Assembly (NCBI GenBank): GCA_903887485.1
Contig: CAISPV010000003.1
Location: 26,133 to 90,132 of the forward strand
Direction of reading: 5' to 3'
From: an uncultured Desulfobulbaceae bacterium
GTDB lineage: Bacteria; Desulfobacterota; Desulfobulbia; Desulfobulbales; Desulfocapsaceae
DNA length: 64,000 bases
Under the pieces are notes generated by a model. That model did not search any database, was not told where the DNA came from, and was given only the letters and a program-made list of their open reading frames with translations. Below, piece by piece: positions 9,747 to 56,364 of the stretch; the stretch's first letter is position 1, and every line of letters begins with the position of its first letter. A program made the position numbers and the translations under genes.

Positions 9747-10902
9747 ATAACGTCCTGGTTTCAATAGGGGTATAAGGCCGCAGGCAAGGTCCGACATAAT
9801 TGGCGCTGGGCCTGATCAAGCGGTTATTACGCCATTGCTCAAGGATATGGGCAGTCCAGCCCACCGCCCGGCTCATGGCAAAGATAGGGGTAAAAAGCTC
9901 GGTTGGAATCCCCATGGCCCGATAGAGGGTACCGGTATAAAAATCCACATTGGGGAAGACCTTGGAATTGGCCAGCATCGTCTTTTCAACAACCTGAGCG
10001 ATCTCATAAAAGCGAGTATCTCCTGCCTTACGGGTTATCTGCTCGGCATATTCCCTCATGATGCCGACCCGAGGGTCTTCACATTTATAAACACGATGGC
10101 CAAACCCCGGAATCTTGCCCTTGGCAGCTAGACGATTCAAAATCCACGACTCTGCTTTCTCCGGCGCACCAATGGTCTCAAACATCTCCATCACATCCGC
10201 ATTTGCCCCGCCGTGCAACGGGCCTTTCAACGCCCCGATAGCACTGGTCATTGCCGAATAGATATCAGACATGGTGGCGGCGGTGACCCGGGCGGCAAAG
10301 GTTGAGGCATTCAATTCATGATCAGCATGAAGGATAAGGGCGACATCAAGGGCGCGGACGATATCGGAGTCAGGCTCTTTTCCCTGCAGGGTATACAAAA
10401 AATTATAGGCAATGCCATGATTGGGAATAGGGGCAATAGGCTCCTGCCCATCTTTTAACCGCTGATGGGCGGCAATAATCAGGGGGATCCGTTCCGTCAA
10501 CCGCTGGGCCTTGCGCAACGAGGCATCCAGCAGGGTGTTCCCGCTGTCGGGATCCCAATGGCCCAAAGAAGAAACAGCGGTGCGCAGGACCTCCATGGAG
10601 GAAGCAGTGCGGGGAAACATCCGCAGGATCATGGTCGTTTCAACCGGCAGCAGCATACCGCCGGTGAACCCATCGAGAAAGGCCTGAAACTCAGTGAGGC
10701 CGGGCAATCTGCCATACCAGAGCAGATACGCCACTTCTTCAAAGGTGGAGTTTCGGGCCAGATCAAGGGCATCATAACCACGATAGATCAGGCGCCCTTC
10801 CTTGCCATCAATAAAACAGATCGCTGAGTTACAGGCGATAATATCGGCCAGACCTTGTTCTTTATCTTTAGTGGTTACTTTCTGGCAAGCGGGTGTTGTC
10901 AT
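9745..10902 (-). CDS. Citrate synthase (citrate/2-methylcitrate synthase family)
   Basis: 385 aa; LILHADHELNASTFAARV, GALKGPLHGGANADVM, GFGHRVYKCEDPR. Confidence 0.93.
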   Translation of the reverse strand: MTTPACQKVTTKDKEQGLADIIACNSAICFIDGKEGRLIYRGYDALDLARNSTFEEVAYLLWYGRLPGLTEFQAFLDGFTGGMLLPVETTMILRMFPRTASSMEVLRTAVSSLGHWDPDSGNTLLDASLRKAQRLTERIPLIIAAHQRLKDGQEPIAPIPNHGIAYNFLYTLQGKEPDSDIVRALDVALILHADHELNASTFAARVTAATMSDIYSAMTSAIGALKGPLHGGANADVMEMFETIGAPEKAESWILNRLAAKGKIPGFGHRVYKCEDPRVGIMREYAEQITRKAGDTRFYEIAQVVEKTMLANSKVFPNVDFYTGTLYRAMGIPTELFTPIFAMSRAVGWTAHILEQWRNNRLIRPSANYVGPCLRPYTPIETRTL

Positions 10903-11236
10903 AGGGTTACTCCTGATGAGAGTATCATATTTGTGAAAGGCAGAGGTTCTCTGGTCATATTGAACAAGTCGAATGTAACAGGAAAATCAGGGGAACGAAA
11001 TAAAAAATTTGCGCCTGACGGCAGGGTTATGAGGCGCCCGGGCAATCGCCGGTATTCGCAAGCCTGACTGGACCACACCGGATTTCATTTTTATATCGTT
11101 TTTATTTAAAGATAAATTACGATATATAAAAGGAACAAATCGCGCCGGGACTTCTTGCCTTCATCCGCTCCACGCTTTAGCGACCCCTTGACAAAAAGAC
11201 CGGCAAGCCAGCAACCATCTTCGCACAGGGTAACAT

Positions 11237-12022
11237 ATGCACCCCATCCCTCTTGTCATCGTCGCATTTGGCACAACGGCTAAGGCCCTGGCCAGTTATG
11301 AGCATCTGGACACCCGATTCAAGAATCGTTTCCCTGGCCATGAAATTTTCTGGGCCTATTCATCACGCCTGGTCAAAGACAGGGGTGCCGGACAGCCACA
11401 GAAGACGATTTTCAGTCCCCATGAAATACTGGAGACCTTGTATCGCCGGCACTATTCGTGGGCAGTCGTTCAATCACTCCACCTCCTCGGCGGCCATGAA
11501 TTCAGCCGTTTAGTGGAAGAAACGAAACAAACCCCCCTCCGCACCTCCATCGGCCTGCCCCTGCTCAGTGCCCCAGAAGATTATCTGGCCCTTTGCGCCG
11601 GCTTGTCGCCTTTAATCAACACCCATCCTGATCAGGCTATCCTTCTGGTGGGACATGGTACGGATCATCCTGCCTGGTGTGCCTACCCGGCCCTGCAATA
11701 TTTTATGCGCAGGCAATTTGGGCCGCGGATTTTTGTTGGCGTGATTGAAGAAGGATGTCCGTCAAGCACCGAAGTCATCGCCGAGATTACGGCTGCCGGC
11801 TACAAAAAAGTTTGCATCCTTCCCCTGCTGCTCGTAGCAGGCATGCATTTTCATCGGGATCTGGCTGGAGATCACCGTAATTCATGGATGAGCTTGCTGG
11901 CTCAGGCAGATATCAGTGTGGAAATTATTGAGCAGGGAATCGGGATGCTGCCAGCCATCAGTGAAATGTTCTGCCAACATATAGAAGAAGCCTTGGCGAT
12001 AATCCCTGAGAGTAAAGAATAA
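11237..12022 (+). CDS. cbiK: CbiK-type anaerobic sirohydrochlorin cobaltochelatase
   Basis: 261 aa; LVIVAFGTTAKALASYEHLDTRFKNRFPGHEIFWAYSS, LLVGHGTDHPAWCAYPALQ, LLLVAGMHFHRDLAGD. Confidence 0.88.
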   Translation: MHPIPLVIVAFGTTAKALASYEHLDTRFKNRFPGHEIFWAYSSRLVKDRGAGQPQKTIFSPHEILETLYRRHYSWAVVQSLHLLGGHEFSRLVEETKQTPLRTSIGLPLLSAPEDYLALCAGLSPLINTHPDQAILLVGHGTDHPAWCAYPALQYFMRRQFGPRIFVGVIEEGCPSSTEVIAEITAAGYKKVCILPLLLVAGMHFHRDLAGDHRNSWMSLLAQADISVEIIEQGIGMLPAISEMFCQHIEEALAIIPESKE

Positions 12023-12230
12023 CACCATTTGTGACAAAATAATTTCATTGCCTGGCTGTCAAACACAGCATAAAGAGCCGGAAAGTCCAAAAATTACGGG
12101 GAAAAGATACCGCATAAAATGATGGCCCATTCACTTGACAAACTAAAAAGCCTATAGTATTAAAGCGAAATCAATTTTTAGTTCAGAAACGGTGAAAACC
12201 AATAAACAATATTTTTGTAAGGAGGGTAAC

Positions 12231-12548
12231 ATGCCTACATTAGAACACAATGGATCTACTTTTGAGGTAGATGAAGATGGATTCCTGCTCAACTCCAAAA
12301 CATTCAATCCAGATTGGGTTGATTATGTAAAAAGTGTTGAGGGTATTGGCGAGATGACCGAAGAGCACAACAAAGTAATCAGCGCTCTCCAGGAATACTA
12401 TGTTAAAAATGGTATTGCCCCAATGGTCCGTATCCTTTCCAAGACCACTGGCTTCCCATTGAAAAGAATTTATGAGCTGTTCCCATCCGGTCCTGGTAAA
12501 GGAGCCTGTAAAATGGCTGGCCTGCCAAAACCAACCGGTTGCGTATAA
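12231..12548 (+). CDS. dsrC: DsrC/TusE family sulfur-carrier protein (true DsrC type)
   Basis: ATG at 12231 preceded by GTAAGGAGGG; MPTLEHNGSTFEVDEDGFL..., C-terminus GKGACKMAGLPKPTGCV with both conserved cysteines. ORF track starts upstream. Confidence 0.93.
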   Translation: MPTLEHNGSTFEVDEDGFLLNSKTFNPDWVDYVKSVEGIGEMTEEHNKVISALQEYYVKNGIAPMVRILSKTTGFPLKRIYELFPSGPGKGACKMAGLPKPTGCV

Positions 12549-50488: not shown

Positions 50489-50544
50489 GCCGGGCTGGGA
50501 ACGTATGCCCGTTGCTGTTTTTACATATAGATCGGGGGAATGAT

Positions 50545-52725
50545 ATGGTGAGTGGGATTTCTTCAGAAGCTGGTCTCCAGGAGCTATGCCGGATAGGGGT
50601 GGCCCTGTCTGAGGAAAAAGATACCAACAAGCTGCTGGAGATGATCGCCAGCATGGCCAGACACTATACCAATGCCGAGGGTTGTACCTTTTATCTCTGT
50701 AATGAGGAAAAGGGCTGTCTGGATTTCTCCGTGGTCCAGAATGAAAGGCTTGCTATCTATCAGACCGGGCCGGACCGGGAAAGTGACTGGCCCAGCGTGC
50801 CGCTCTACCTGGCCGATGGCTCCGAGAATCACGGAAATGTCTCGGCCCACTGCGCCCTCACCGGCCAGACAGTCAATATCAGCGACGTGTATCATGAAAC
50901 GGGCTATGACTTCTGCAGTACCCGTGCGTTTGATCGGGCGGCCGGCTACCGCTCCCGCTCCATGCTTCTTGTGCCCATGCAGGATAAGCAGGGGGATGTA
51001 ATCGGGGTTCTGCAACTCCTCAACGCCCGCTCCAATGCCGATGGGGTAATTATCGACTTCCCGGAAGAGGCGGTGGGCATGGTCAAAGGACTGGCCTCCC
51101 AGGCCAGTGTCTCGGTGGTTAATGTCCAGCTTCTCAACCGGTTGAAAAAGTTCACCAGCCTGGGGGTGGCCTTGTCCGCGGAAAAGAATATTCACACCCT
51201 GCTGGAGATGATCGCTACCATGGCCCGCCAATACACTCACGCCGAGGGATGTACGGTCTATCTCTGTAATGAGGCTCGGGATATCCTGGAATTTGCGGTG
51301 ATCCAGAACGAGAAACTGGATATTTTTCTGAAGATGGACGGGGAGAAAAGGGAATGGCCGCTGATCAGTCTCTATTTGGCGGACGGCAGTGAAAACCATC
51401 GTAATGTCTCGGCCCACTGTGTCCTGACCAGAGAGATCATCTCCATCCATGATGTTTACAGCGAGGATGGATTCGATTTTAGTGGTACCCGTGAGTTTGA
51501 TGCCATCTCTAATTATCGGTCGAAATCTATGCTCCTTGTGCCCATGACCGACCATGAGGATGAGGTGATCGGGGTGCTCCAGCTTATTAACGCCCGGCGG
51601 GGAATCTCCCGTCATGTCTCTGATTTTCCCGAAGAGGATATCGAGCTGGTGAGCGGCCTGGCTTCCCAGGCGGCGGTGGCGGTGACCAATGTCCGGTTGG
51701 TCAAGGGCATGGAAAAACTGCTTCATTCCTTCGTTCAGTGCATAGCCGCGGCCATTGACGAGAAATCTCCCTATACCGCCGGTCATATCCAGCGGGTGGC
51801 CAGATTGACCGAGATGATGGTAAGCGGAATCAACGCGACCCAAACCGGCCCTTTTGCCGATGTCCATTTCTCCGAGGAGCAGAGGGAGGAAATCAATCTG
51901 GCGGCCTGGATGCACGATATCGGCAAGATCACCACCCCGGAGCATGTGGTGGACAAGACGACCAAACTGGAGACGATCTTTGATCGGATTGAACTGGTCC
52001 GGCTGCGGATTGAGCTTCTACGCAAGGAGCAGGAGATCGCCAGTCTGCGGTCGGGGCTGACCTCAGAGCGGAACCAGCCCTGTCCATCGGCCGGCGCAAA
52101 GCAGGAGCACGATTTTGACCGGATCTTCCAGTTTATCCGTCGGGCCAATATCGGCGGGGAGTTCATGCGGGATGAGGATCTGGTTGAGATCGAACGAATC
52201 GCATCGCTGCGCTTTGAACTGGATGGGAAGTCCACCCCCCTCCTCAATGAGAACGAGGTGGAATGTTGCTCTATCCGCAAGGGAACCTTGACCGAGAAGG
52301 AGCGGCAGATCATCAACCATCATGTGGCAGTGGGCATCCGAATGCTGGAGAGTCTGCCCTTCCTCAAAAAATGGGCCAGGGTTCCCGAGTATGCAGGGAT
52401 GCATCACGAAAAGCTTGATGGCAGCGGCTATCCCAAGGGGAAAAGGGGTGAAGAGATCTCCCTGCCGGCCCGAATTCTCGCAGTGGCCGATGTCTTCGAG
52501 GCCCTGACCGCCTCCGACCGGCCTTACACGGTCGGCAGGAGTCTCGCCGAGGCCTTGCGGATCATGGAGCTTATGGTCAAGGCCTTCCATCTTGACGGCG
52601 CCATCTGTGATTTTCTGGTGGAGAGCGGGATCGTCAGCAGATACGTGGCGGAGCATCTTGCCGACAAACAGCAGGGACATTACTGCTGGAATGGCAAGGA
52701 ATATCAGGACTTTTTGCCTGTTTGA
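50545..52725 (+). CDS. Tandem GAF - HD-GYP domain signalling protein
   Basis: Two very similar GAF modules (MIASMARHYTNAEGCTFYLCNE / MIATMARQYTHAEGCTVYLCNE), then HIQRVARL..WMHDIGKI..HHEKLDGSGYPKG. Start trimmed to M at 50545. Confidence 0.92.
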   Translation: MVSGISSEAGLQELCRIGVALSEEKDTNKLLEMIASMARHYTNAEGCTFYLCNEEKGCLDFSVVQNERLAIYQTGPDRESDWPSVPLYLADGSENHGNVSAHCALTGQTVNISDVYHETGYDFCSTRAFDRAAGYRSRSMLLVPMQDKQGDVIGVLQLLNARSNADGVIIDFPEEAVGMVKGLASQASVSVVNVQLLNRLKKFTSLGVALSAEKNIHTLLEMIATMARQYTHAEGCTVYLCNEARDILEFAVIQNEKLDIFLKMDGEKREWPLISLYLADGSENHRNVSAHCVLTREIISIHDVYSEDGFDFSGTREFDAISNYRSKSMLLVPMTDHEDEVIGVLQLINARRGISRHVSDFPEEDIELVSGLASQAAVAVTNVRLVKGMEKLLHSFVQCIAAAIDEKSPYTAGHIQRVARLTEMMVSGINATQTGPFADVHFSEEQREEINLAAWMHDIGKITTPEHVVDKTTKLETIFDRIELVRLRIELLRKEQEIASLRSGLTSERNQPCPSAGAKQEHDFDRIFQFIRRANIGGEFMRDEDLVEIERIASLRFELDGKSTPLLNENEVECCSIRKGTLTEKERQIINHHVAVGIRMLESLPFLKKWARVPEYAGMHHEKLDGSGYPKGKRGEEISLPARILAVADVFEALTASDRPYTVGRSLAEALRIMELMVKAFHLDGAICDFLVESGIVSRYVAEHLADKQQGHYCWNGKEYQDFLPV

Positions 52726-52877: not shown

Positions 52878-53300
52878 ATGGGAGAGCAGTTTAGTGTTCA
52901 GGTCCGGGATGGGCAGGTCCGGACCAAGCCATCTTTTTTAGGCGCCGTGATTGCGACGGTTCACTACGGAGATCGGCTGGCGGTTGTGCAGTCCAAGGAG
53001 TCCTGGGTGGAGGTTGCCCTTCCCGGATCAAAGCAGGGCTGGATTCACCTTTCCGCCCTGACGGAAAAGGAGATCATTCTCAATCCGAATGCCCAGCAGG
53101 TCAGTCAGGCGGCGAGCAGTGACGAGCTGGCCCTGGCCGGCAAGGGCTTCAACAAGCAGGTGGAGGAGCAGTTCCGTAAGCAGAATAGTCAGGCCAATTT
53201 TGCAGGGGTGGACAAGATGGAGACCTTCCGGGTCTCCCAGGAGGAGATGGCGCAATTCTTGAAGGCGGGTGATCTGAAGCCTCAGGGAGGTGCGGCATGA
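52878..53300 (+). CDS. SH3-domain protein
   Basis: 140 aa; VRDGQVRTKPSFLGAVIATVHYGDRLAVVQSKESWVEVALPGSKQGWIHLSAL (bacterial SH3); no obvious signal peptide. Confidence 0.85.
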   Translation: MGEQFSVQVRDGQVRTKPSFLGAVIATVHYGDRLAVVQSKESWVEVALPGSKQGWIHLSALTEKEIILNPNAQQVSQAASSDELALAGKGFNKQVEEQFRKQNSQANFAGVDKMETFRVSQEEMAQFLKAGDLKPQGGAA

Positions 53301-54226
53301 AGGCACGAAGATTGAACAGAAGGACTTTTCTCGCCACGGGCGCCAGGATCGGTATGACCGGCCTTGCCCTGAGTGGCTCCTCCCTGCTCCTTCAGGGCTT
53401 TGGTTTCGGTGATCTTGGCTCCACCATCGAGCAGGCCTCTAAGCTCACGAACTCCGCGACTAAGAGTTTCACCGCCGTATCCAAGGCCATGGAGGACATT
53501 ACCCCGGAACAGGAGTATTATATCGGTCGCACTATCGGGGCCATTGTTCTCAATAAATACAAGCCCTATGAGCAGGAGACCGGCAACCGCTATCTGAACC
53601 TCCTGGGCCAGACCCTGGCCCGCTTTTCTGATCTTCCCGAACTCTTTGACAGCTACCATTTTCTGATTCTCGATTCGGCCGAGATCAATGCCTTCGCCAC
53701 CCCCAGCGGCCTGGTCTTCGTCACCCGGGGGATGCTCCAGTGCTGTGGCCATGAAGACGCCCTGGCCGCGGTTCTGGCCCATGAGATCGGCCACATCCAG
53801 CTTAAGCACGGCTTGCATTCCATTGAAAAAGATCGCATCACCAAGGCCACCTCGATTCTGGCCATCGAGGGGACCAAAAATTTCGCTAAATCCGATATCG
53901 CCAATCTCACTTCGACCTTTGAGGATTCGATCAACGATATCACCAGCGCCATGATCAATAACGGGTACTCCCGTTCTTTTGAAAATGCGGCGGATGCGGC
54001 GGCGGTGACCCTGCTTGGACGGGTCGGCTATAATCCGGCAGGACTCATTGATATGCTGCGGATTATGAGCAAACAGCTCAAGCCAGGCGGCCTTGATTTT
54101 GCTAAGACCCATCCCTCACCGGAGAGCCGGATCGAGAACCTGGAAAAGTTGGTTGCCGAGACAGGGGCTCAAACGCCAGCGGCATCTCAGCAGCGTCGCT
54201 TCGAGGCAGCTTTGAAAGGGGTATGA
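53297..54226 (+). CDS. M48 family metalloprotease with Tat-like signal
   Basis: RRTFLATG twin-Arg; VLAHEIGHIQLKHGL (HExxH); ENAADAAAVTLL. Confidence 0.92.
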   Translation: MKARRLNRRTFLATGARIGMTGLALSGSSLLLQGFGFGDLGSTIEQASKLTNSATKSFTAVSKAMEDITPEQEYYIGRTIGAIVLNKYKPYEQETGNRYLNLLGQTLARFSDLPELFDSYHFLILDSAEINAFATPSGLVFVTRGMLQCCGHEDALAAVLAHEIGHIQLKHGLHSIEKDRITKATSILAIEGTKNFAKSDIANLTSTFEDSINDITSAMINNGYSRSFENAADAAAVTLLGRVGYNPAGLIDMLRIMSKQLKPGGLDFAKTHPSPESRIENLEKLVAETGAQTPAASQQRRFEAALKGV

Positions 54227-56364
54227 GCAAAACAGGGCGGGCCAGACTCCTTCAGGCCGCCGCAACATCCTGCACCGGAATCCTGATCGCCCTGTTTCTC
54301 TGGCTTAATGGTTTTCTCGCTGGTTGGGAGGACCGGGTCTGGGATCTGGAAAGCAGGTGGTTTGCCGCACCCGGCCCTCATACCAAGGAGATTGTTCTGG
54401 TCCTTGTTGACCAGAAGAGTCTGGAGTGGGCTCAGTCGCAACTGGGAGTGACCTGGCCCTGGCCCCGGGAGCTGTACGGGGCCATTCTCGACAACTGCCG
54501 CCGGCATCAGGCCCTGGCAGTGGGCTTTGACGTCCTTTTTACCGAGCCCTCAAGCTTTGGCGTGGATGATGATCTGGCGCTCGGCGATGCCATCAAGGCC
54601 ATGGGCCGGTTCGCGGCTGGGTCGGTTTTTCCGGGCAAGGGAGATGGCGGACCACGGCAGTGGCCCGCTGATGTGCCCCGCCCCTCGTCCCGTTTTGCCA
54701 GGGGAGCGGGTGGTGATTCTTTTCCTGCTCCTCATTATGGTTCCGCAACCATGCCCATCAAGGAAGTTGCCGCCAGTCCTTCCATCCTTTGTAATGTCCA
54801 CCAGGACCCGGACCGGGACGGCATCTACCGATCCCTACACCCTCTGACCTTCTTTGACCAGCAGCCATTGCCGGGACTGGGAATCGGCGTTTATCTGGCC
54901 GCCCACCCTGAAGCCCGGATGACCTGGGAAGTGAAGTCGATGACTGTGGATGGGACGACCATTCCGGTTGATAAACAGGGCAGGACCCTTCTTCGTTTCC
55001 GGGGTCCGGCCGGGACCTTTCCGGCCCTTAGCGCCGCCTCGCTTTTGGCCGAGGAGATGGCCCTGCGCGCAGGGCGAAGTGAGGGGGTGGGACAAGGCGG
55101 GGAAAAACTGCAAGGCAAGTACGTCCTCTTCGGCTTTTCGGCGCCCGGTCTTTTTGATCTGCGGCCTACCCCGGTGGACGGTATCTTCTCCGGGGTGGAG
55201 ATCAATGCCACCCTCCTTGATAACCTGCTGGACAACGATTTTATCACCAGAGTCGATCCGAAAAAAGAGTTTGGGGTGCTCTGCCTGCTCGTCATTTTGG
55301 CGGGTATCCTTACTACCCTGTATCCCGGACCCGCTACCCTGACCGGATTTTCCCTCTGTTTTGCTTTGCTGCCGCTTGTCCTGGCCGTGCTCAGTTATCG
55401 CCAGGGACTGCGGTTGGAAATTTTGCCTCTGGAGAGCGGCCTTCTGGTCACTAACGGTCTTGCCATTTTTCTTGATTATCAGCGCGAAGGGAAACGACGT
55501 CGTTTTATCAAACACTCCTTCCGCCATTACCTCAGTCCACATGTCATTGAACAACTGATCGAAAATCCTGGGAAACTGCGTCTGGGCGGTGAACGGCGAG
55601 AACTCTCTATTTTCTTCTCTGATCTTCAGGGTTTTACCACTATCTCCGAGGGCCTGGAACCGGAGGCGTTGACTACTCTGCTCAATGCCTATCTGTCGGC
55701 TATGACCGATATTATTCTGGAAGAGGATGGGACGGTGGATAAATACGAGGGAGACGCGATCATCGCCTTCTGGAACGCGCCGATTGACGTGGCTGACCAT
55801 GCGGTACGGGCGGTGCGGGCTGCCCTGCGTTGTCAGAAAAAGCTGGCCGAGTTGCGGCCGCGCTTCAAGGAGCAGTACGGTCATGACCTGTTTATGCGGA
55901 TCGGGATCAATTCCGGTCCGGCCGTGGTCGGCAATCTGGGCTCATCGACCCGTTTTGATTACACCATGCTGGGGGATGCGGTGAACCTGGCGGCCCGTCT
56001 GGAAGGGGCGAACAAGCAGTTCGGCTCGTATTTGATGATCTCCGGGGCCAGCCGGGAGCAGATTGGGGAAGCCTTCCCCTGCCGGGAGCTGGCCAAGCTG
56101 ACCGTGGTCGGTCGCAAAGAACCGGTGCGGGTCTATGAGCCCTTTCTTCCCGAAGAATTTCAGCGGGCAGAGGCCAGGTGTCGGACCTTTGATCAGGGCC
56201 GGCAGGCCTTTTACCAGGGGCAATTCCAAGAGGCCATCACCCTCTTCTCCTCAATAGCCGATGAAGACCCACCCTCTGCCCATTATCTTACTCAATGTCG
56301 GGAGTTAGTCGAAAGAGGGGCCGGCGACAATTGGCAGGGGATTTGGTCGCTTACCAGTAAATAA
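54223..56364 (+). CDS. CHASE2 sensor - class III adenylate/guanylate cyclase
   Basis: N-term CHASE2-like extracellular region, three C-terminal TMs, cyclase domain LSIFFSDLQGFTTISEGLEPEALTTLLNAYLSAMTDIILEEDGTVDKYEGDAIIAFWNAP. Confidence 0.93.
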   Translation: MSKTGRARLLQAAATSCTGILIALFLWLNGFLAGWEDRVWDLESRWFAAPGPHTKEIVLVLVDQKSLEWAQSQLGVTWPWPRELYGAILDNCRRHQALAVGFDVLFTEPSSFGVDDDLALGDAIKAMGRFAAGSVFPGKGDGGPRQWPADVPRPSSRFARGAGGDSFPAPHYGSATMPIKEVAASPSILCNVHQDPDRDGIYRSLHPLTFFDQQPLPGLGIGVYLAAHPEARMTWEVKSMTVDGTTIPVDKQGRTLLRFRGPAGTFPALSAASLLAEEMALRAGRSEGVGQGGEKLQGKYVLFGFSAPGLFDLRPTPVDGIFSGVEINATLLDNLLDNDFITRVDPKKEFGVLCLLVILAGILTTLYPGPATLTGFSLCFALLPLVLAVLSYRQGLRLEILPLESGLLVTNGLAIFLDYQREGKRRRFIKHSFRHYLSPHVIEQLIENPGKLRLGGERRELSIFFSDLQGFTTISEGLEPEALTTLLNAYLSAMTDIILEEDGTVDKYEGDAIIAFWNAPIDVADHAVRAVRAALRCQKKLAELRPRFKEQYGHDLFMRIGINSGPAVVGNLGSSTRFDYTMLGDAVNLAARLEGANKQFGSYLMISGASREQIGEAFPCRELAKLTVVGRKEPVRVYEPFLPEEFQRAEARCRTFDQGRQAFYQGQFQEAITLFSSIADEDPPSAHYLTQCRELVERGAGDNWQGIWSLTSK

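Follow-up and report, generated by a model that had tools for sequence, protein, structure and literature searches.

The cue sensed by CHASE2 domains is stated to be unknown (PMC5192318). The closest described systems to the locus reported here include the CHASE2-class III cyclases CyaD1, CyaD2 and CyaK of S. meliloti, which with NsrA and Clr turn an envelope or outside signal into a cAMP output, cyclase signalling lying downstream of an outer-membrane protein (PMC13001267). Their partner is an outer-membrane beta-barrel, and in the text searched of that paper no M48 or SH3 partner is given. In the FecR/LysM-linked CHASE2 histidine kinases of the BiofilmReg operon in Burkholderia, the gene of the CHASE2 receptor stands next to one for a secreted accessory protein (PMC5192318), although that accessory is FecR/LysM rather than a protease with an SH3 protein, and the receptor is a kinase version with another output.

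Related systems are also known for the remaining parts of the locus. LoiP, BepA of E. coli and the M48 protein of structure 3c37 have the fold, zinc ligands and HPx4R plug in common with the protease considered here. The BepA plug blocks the active site, is inhibitory and must move, and how M48 proteases lacking a TPR domain find their substrates is an open point in the same paper (PMC7950410). Proteins of TIGR04211 (SH3_and_anchor) share the bacterial SH3 domain. Among Tat hitchhikers, signal-less partners in E. coli PaoABC cross the membrane with the subunit that bears the Tat signal (PMC4273604).

Layout of the locus

The locus lies in a window of 64,000 nucleotides (the whole stretch of DNA that was analysed) from an uncultured Desulfobulbaceae bacterium, and is composed of the following features:

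50539..52725, + strand, gene for a GAF-GAF-HD-GYP protein (Pfam), a companion in the host genus only
52878..53300, + strand, SH3 protein gene, 140 aa, with the SH3_3 domain at about 52914-53054 (Pfam SH3_3, 1.3e-6)
53124..53165, + strand, motif E-x-ALAGKGFNxxVE, residues 83-96 in the C-terminal part of the SH3 protein (alignment)
53297..54226, + strand, M48 metalloprotease gene, 309 aa (Peptidase_M48 PF01435, 2.3e-32)
53318..53332, + strand, twin-arginine motif RRTFL of the M48 signal sequence (sequence)
53780..53794, + strand, zinc-binding HEIGH, H162-H166 (HExxH)
53981-53983, + strand, third zinc ligand, E229 (sequence)
54110..54130, + strand, HPx4R active-site plug, H272-R278 (alignment)
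54223..56364, + strand, gene for a CHASE2 transmembrane class III cyclase, 713 aa (Pfam)
54283-55308, + strand, CHASE2 domain (Pfam CHASE2, 3.9e-47)
about 55600-56019, + strand, cyclase domain (Pfam Guanylate_cyc, 1e-17)

Both junctions of the trio are 4-nt ATGA overlaps, visible in the window sequence at 53297-53300 (SH3/M48) and 54223-54226 (M48/CHASE2), and each of the three domains is recovered by Pfam, in agreement with the first-pass annotation. The Shine-Dalgarno sequence AGGAGG stands 6 nt ahead of the SH3 start, as it does in congeners. The same annotation knew of no characterised system with this architecture; our searches of the open-access literature agree, finding no description of CHASE2 with M48 and SH3, though an unindexed one is possible. 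The comparisons below point to a real and widespread module that is apparently uncharacterised and whose mechanism is predicted.

Conservation of the trio across bacteria

An alignment of the M48 protein only was scanned against about 85,000 species, yielding 80 loci chosen solely by M48 similarity. An SH3 gene lies directly upstream of the M48 gene in every locus with sufficient contig: the automatic rule found it in 77 of the 80, while L086 and L139 begin at a contig edge and L136 reflects an ORF-calling fault. Downstream, the CHASE2 cyclase is found in about 95% of loci with sufficient contig, at no more than 1 kb in 72 of the 80 and more distant or frameshifted in L122 and L112 (the contigs of L119 and L124 end too early to show it). 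Four loci (L094, L145, L148 and L151) have no CHASE2 gene adjacent to SH3-M48, and the pair can therefore act without an adjacent cyclase.

Going by record titles, nearly all of them of MAGs so that individual assignments may be wrong, the trio occurs in Desulfobacterota, Myxococcota, Kiritimatiellota, Lentisphaerota, Verrucomicrobiota, Spirochaetota, Planctomycetota, Krumholzibacteriota, Latescibacterota and Methylobacter, and the side-by-side arrangement spans at least eight bacterial phyla. With about 75 loci in many phyla the arrangement is far beyond chance; conservation of the neighbourhood outside this species, which the first-pass annotation had named as a check on its reading, is thus found. 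The SH3 and M48 genes overlap by 4 nt in 71 of 90 loci, an overlap that is nearly fixed, while the gap between M48 and CHASE2 is variable. No fourth gene recurs around the trio, the best other family reaching at most 17 of 92 loci, which are scattered.

A survey of the phylum found the M48 group in 45 of 395 genomes. Its lower-scoring members, in other families, show a second gene order, CHASE2-SH3-M48, often again with 4-nt overlaps (L233, L238), and a few loci consist of SH3-M48 alone. Pairwise distances among the three proteins are correlated (r 0.59-0.72; 0 of 500 permutations).

In a set of 97 related genomes, the M48 protein and the cyclase have close homologues together in 7 of the 17 genomes of the host genus and also in G037, G032, G093 and G092 (split by a contig break in the last), and in none of the 97 was either present at close similarity without the other. 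G006 has an empty site between pepT and selD, where the HD-GYP, SH3, M48 and cyclase genes are all missing as a block. The trio has been gained or lost as one block in the host genus. The GAF-GAF-HD-GYP gene, which precedes SH3 by 30-40 nt in congeners L065-L067, was considered as a general member of the module and rejected, being the upstream companion in this genus only; locally it may couple the cAMP module to c-di-GMP turnover. A related GAF-HD gene lies directly downstream of the trio in one family genome, G037 (L069:6282-7544).

Properties of the three proteins

The window SH3 protein scores 28 bits against TIGR04211 (cut-off 65), and a helix motif, ALAGKGF, follows the SH3 domain in place of the anchor of that family. 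Residues E83, G90, F91 and E96 are invariant in an alignment of 61 sequences, and the motif is more conserved than the SH3 domain itself (mean top-residue frequency 0.74 vs 0.58). The AlphaFold model, made separately from that of M48, consists of an SH3 barrel, a loose linker and four helices (pLDDT 81), and its best Foldseek matches are bacterial SH3b domains. The motif is retained whether or not the SH3 protein has a signal peptide, and E-x-ALAGKGF is a candidate docking motif.

The protease scores 112.8 bits against PF01435 (cut-off 20.3), and the solved structures closest to it are 3c37 (Geobacter M48) and E. coli BepA. H162, E163, H166 and E229 of the zinc site are invariant, the pattern HExxH...ExxxD is retained in 93 of 95 loci, and T271, H272, P273 and R278 of the plug are invariant in 46 sequences. 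No TPR domain was found in the protein, which scores 77.4 bits for BepA (cut-off 570) and 53.6 bits for LoiP (cut-off 365); on these scores it is a member of the M48 family that is neither BepA nor LoiP. It is further unlike both in always being paired with an SH3 gene and, as predicted from its N-terminus, in being exported by Tat in the host lineage. LoiP is a lipoprotein, as are many relatives of the window protease. The M48 relatives are in fact mostly of this kind, with a lipobox Cys, but the Cys is replaced in most of the host genus and in G037 to leave a Tat signal without lipobox.

The cyclase is the sole CHASE2 protein of the host genome and scores 161.4 bits against PF05226 (cut-off 26.3). 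About 90 loci share D467, K507, D511, T581, N588 and R592 as conserved residues; following established class III alignments, we take D467/D511 to be the metal-binding Asp residues, K507/T581 the substrate pair and N588/R592 the transition-state Asn and Arg. K507/T581 is the substrate pair of class IIIb adenylate cyclases and thus predicts an adenylate rather than a guanylate cyclase, with cAMP as output. The cyclic nucleotide output of the first-pass proposal, cAMP or cGMP, is accordingly narrowed to predicted cAMP. A Pycsar anti-phage system, in which a PycC cyclase is paired with an effector, was rejected: the match is to the generic cyclase fold alone (E 3e-32), and PADLOC gave no match for SH3 or M48.

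Export signals of the SH3 protein and the protease

The protease begins with MKARRLNRRTFLATG, which contains NRRTFLATG; an RRxFL motif followed by a weakly hydrophobic h-region is Tat-like, and TatC is encoded in the host genome. The first-pass annotation had assigned a Tat signal to M48 and no signal peptide to the SH3 protein, and neither assignment needs revision, the in-frame region upstream of the SH3 start being without a hydrophobic segment. An overlooked upstream start that would add a signal peptide is ruled out in the window and in congeners, L070 alone being ambiguous.

We scored the N-termini of both proteins in 90 loci by motif and hydrophobicity rather than with a trained predictor, and corrected or confirmed eight calls by eye (L089, L092, L097, L098, L121, L141, L146 and L152). 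After correction the M48/SH3 signal states are Tat/none in 20 loci, Tat/signal peptide in 3, Sec/none in 0 and Sec/signal peptide in 67 (automatic counts 18, 3, 7 and 62, respectively); the SH3 signal is absent solely where M48 bears a twin-arginine signal. Fisher's test gives 3e-17 for the association of Tat-bearing M48 with signal-less SH3, a value in which common descent is left uncorrected. Two further Tat/signal peptide cases occur in the phylum survey (L165 and L169). Mean h-region hydrophobicity is lower in the Tat group than in the Sec group (1.57 vs 2.59, p 2.7e-10).

This association is expected if the SH3 protein binds M48 before export and, with M48 crossing in the folded state, drops the signal of its own; it suggests that SH3 leaves through Tat as a passenger on M48. 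The pattern of a signal-less protein with a Tat-bearing partner is that of PaoABC, although systems of that type are cofactor-loaded oxidoreductases, whereas here the signal patterns alone point to a zinc protease with a small SH3 protein. Because its relatives have Sec signal peptides, a cytoplasmic location of the SH3 protein is unlikely, and in the host lineage the Tat-exported protease probably carries it along.

Signal states change 8 times on the M48 tree and 4 times on the concatenated tree (2-4 transitions at most). An AU test on a 37-row subset gives no grounds to reject one origin for the Tat/no-signal state (p 0.50), so that the association does not amount to many independent events, and we do not claim that the SH3 signal was lost many times over. 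In the concatenated tree L103 (Tat/no-signal) adjoins L091 (Sec/signal peptide). The L091 protease begins NRPQLW, a Sec-like start resembling a decayed Tat signal, and its SH3 protein has a signal peptide, a possible reversal.

A proposed trans-envelope module and its alternatives

We propose, with a probability of roughly 55%, that the three genes form one trans-envelope module in which a periplasmic SH3-M48 complex gates the CHASE2 adenylate cyclase. In this complex SH3 would be the recognition part, the counterpart of the TPR domain in BepA; in the host lineage the pair would assemble in the cytoplasm and leave via Tat on the twin-arginine signal of M48, so that SH3 would need no signal of its own. 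SH3 would recognise an envelope cue, either a misassembled envelope protein or the state of the peptidoglycan, and the cue would alter the state of the M48 plug and active site. M48 would then cleave or touch the periplasmic CHASE2 domain or its ligand, switching the adenylate cyclase, and cAMP would work through CRP-type regulators. TatC and the ten cNMP-binding proteins of the host genome fit this scheme, and precedents exist both for Tat co-export of a partner lacking a signal (PaoABC, PMC4273604) and for CHASE2-cyclase signalling below an outer-membrane protein (S. meliloti, PMC13001267). The sequences themselves show the conserved trio, its intact active sites and domain topology, and the one-way signal association; from these we infer the complex and its hitchhiking export, what the cue is, which way control runs and where cAMP acts. 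That the genes belong to one pathway, as the first-pass annotation suggested, is strongly supported by the conserved trio, its two gene orders, joint gain and loss and the correlated distances; its further suggestion of envelope sensing, with proteolysis or wall state controlling cyclic nucleotide output, is plausible from the domain topology.

It could instead be that SH3-M48 is an envelope quality-control protease with which the cyclase is merely co-regulated under the same stress, with no physical or proteolytic contact between them. The nearness of the protease to BepA and the 3c37 protein would fit, as would the SH3-M48 pairs lacking an adjacent cyclase and the variable M48-CHASE2 gaps beside a nearly fixed SH3-M48 overlap. 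However, retention of the same three genes across phyla in two orders, together with the correlated distances, favours direct dependence, and we consider co-regulation somewhat unlikely.

A second alternative, which we rate as improbable, keeps the signal-less SH3 protein cytoplasmic, where it would serve the Tat-exported protease as its dedicated chaperone or proofreader, comparable to TorD or DmsD and without a periplasmic role in the host lineage. It would account for the one-way pairing of an absent signal with Tat and for the tight translational coupling, but SH3 proteins of most lineages have a Sec signal and hence act outside, and retention of ALAGKGF with or without the signal argues for one unchanged role.

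Cyclases and CRP proteins are frequent regulators of their own neighbourhood, and the roles might be reversed, cAMP or the CHASE2 protein controlling expression or activity of M48 as the effector. The ten cNMP-binding proteins of the host genome would suit such an arrangement, and the sequence data are compatible with either direction; the sensor domain of the cyclase nevertheless faces the compartment of SH3-M48 while its output is cytoplasmic, which makes this direction distinctly doubtful. That three independent genes are chance neighbours in a shared operon has next to no likelihood, since 4-nt overlaps are indeed frequent in bacteria but the neighbourhood survey, with at least eight phyla, two orders and joint loss, refutes it.

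The proposed gating of the cyclase by SH3-M48 may have a wider bearing. We tentatively raise the possibility, at less than even odds, of an undescribed signalling class in many phyla. Here an M48 protease autoinhibited by its plug and equipped with a detachable SH3 adaptor would act on CHASE2 receptors as their ligand or as a modifying enzyme, the pair being exported in some lineages as a folded hitchhiker complex. If this is true, CHASE2, for which no general cue is known, would gain its activator; protease-adaptor pairs alongside CHASE2 cyclases in many phyla are concrete candidates for that role and make the question testable. The trio also suggests a route by which stand-alone M48 proteases without TPR might find substrates, and the Tat hitchhikers would gain a pair made up of a protease and its adaptor.

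Variant loci

Two loci of the order CHASE2-SH3-M48 have a gene for a FadL/OMPP1-type outer-membrane protein after M48 (L075:6112-7410 and L076:6469-7779), a situation resembling that of NsrA, the outer-membrane partner of the S. meliloti CHASE2 cyclases. In L082 the SH3-M48 pair is preceded by a CHASE2 protein without a cyclase domain (10762-12441; no Pfam output domain), and the output module may therefore be exchangeable. Another CHASE2 cyclase, L079:10400-12706, has the gene of a FecR-domain protein before it, an alternative type of accessory.
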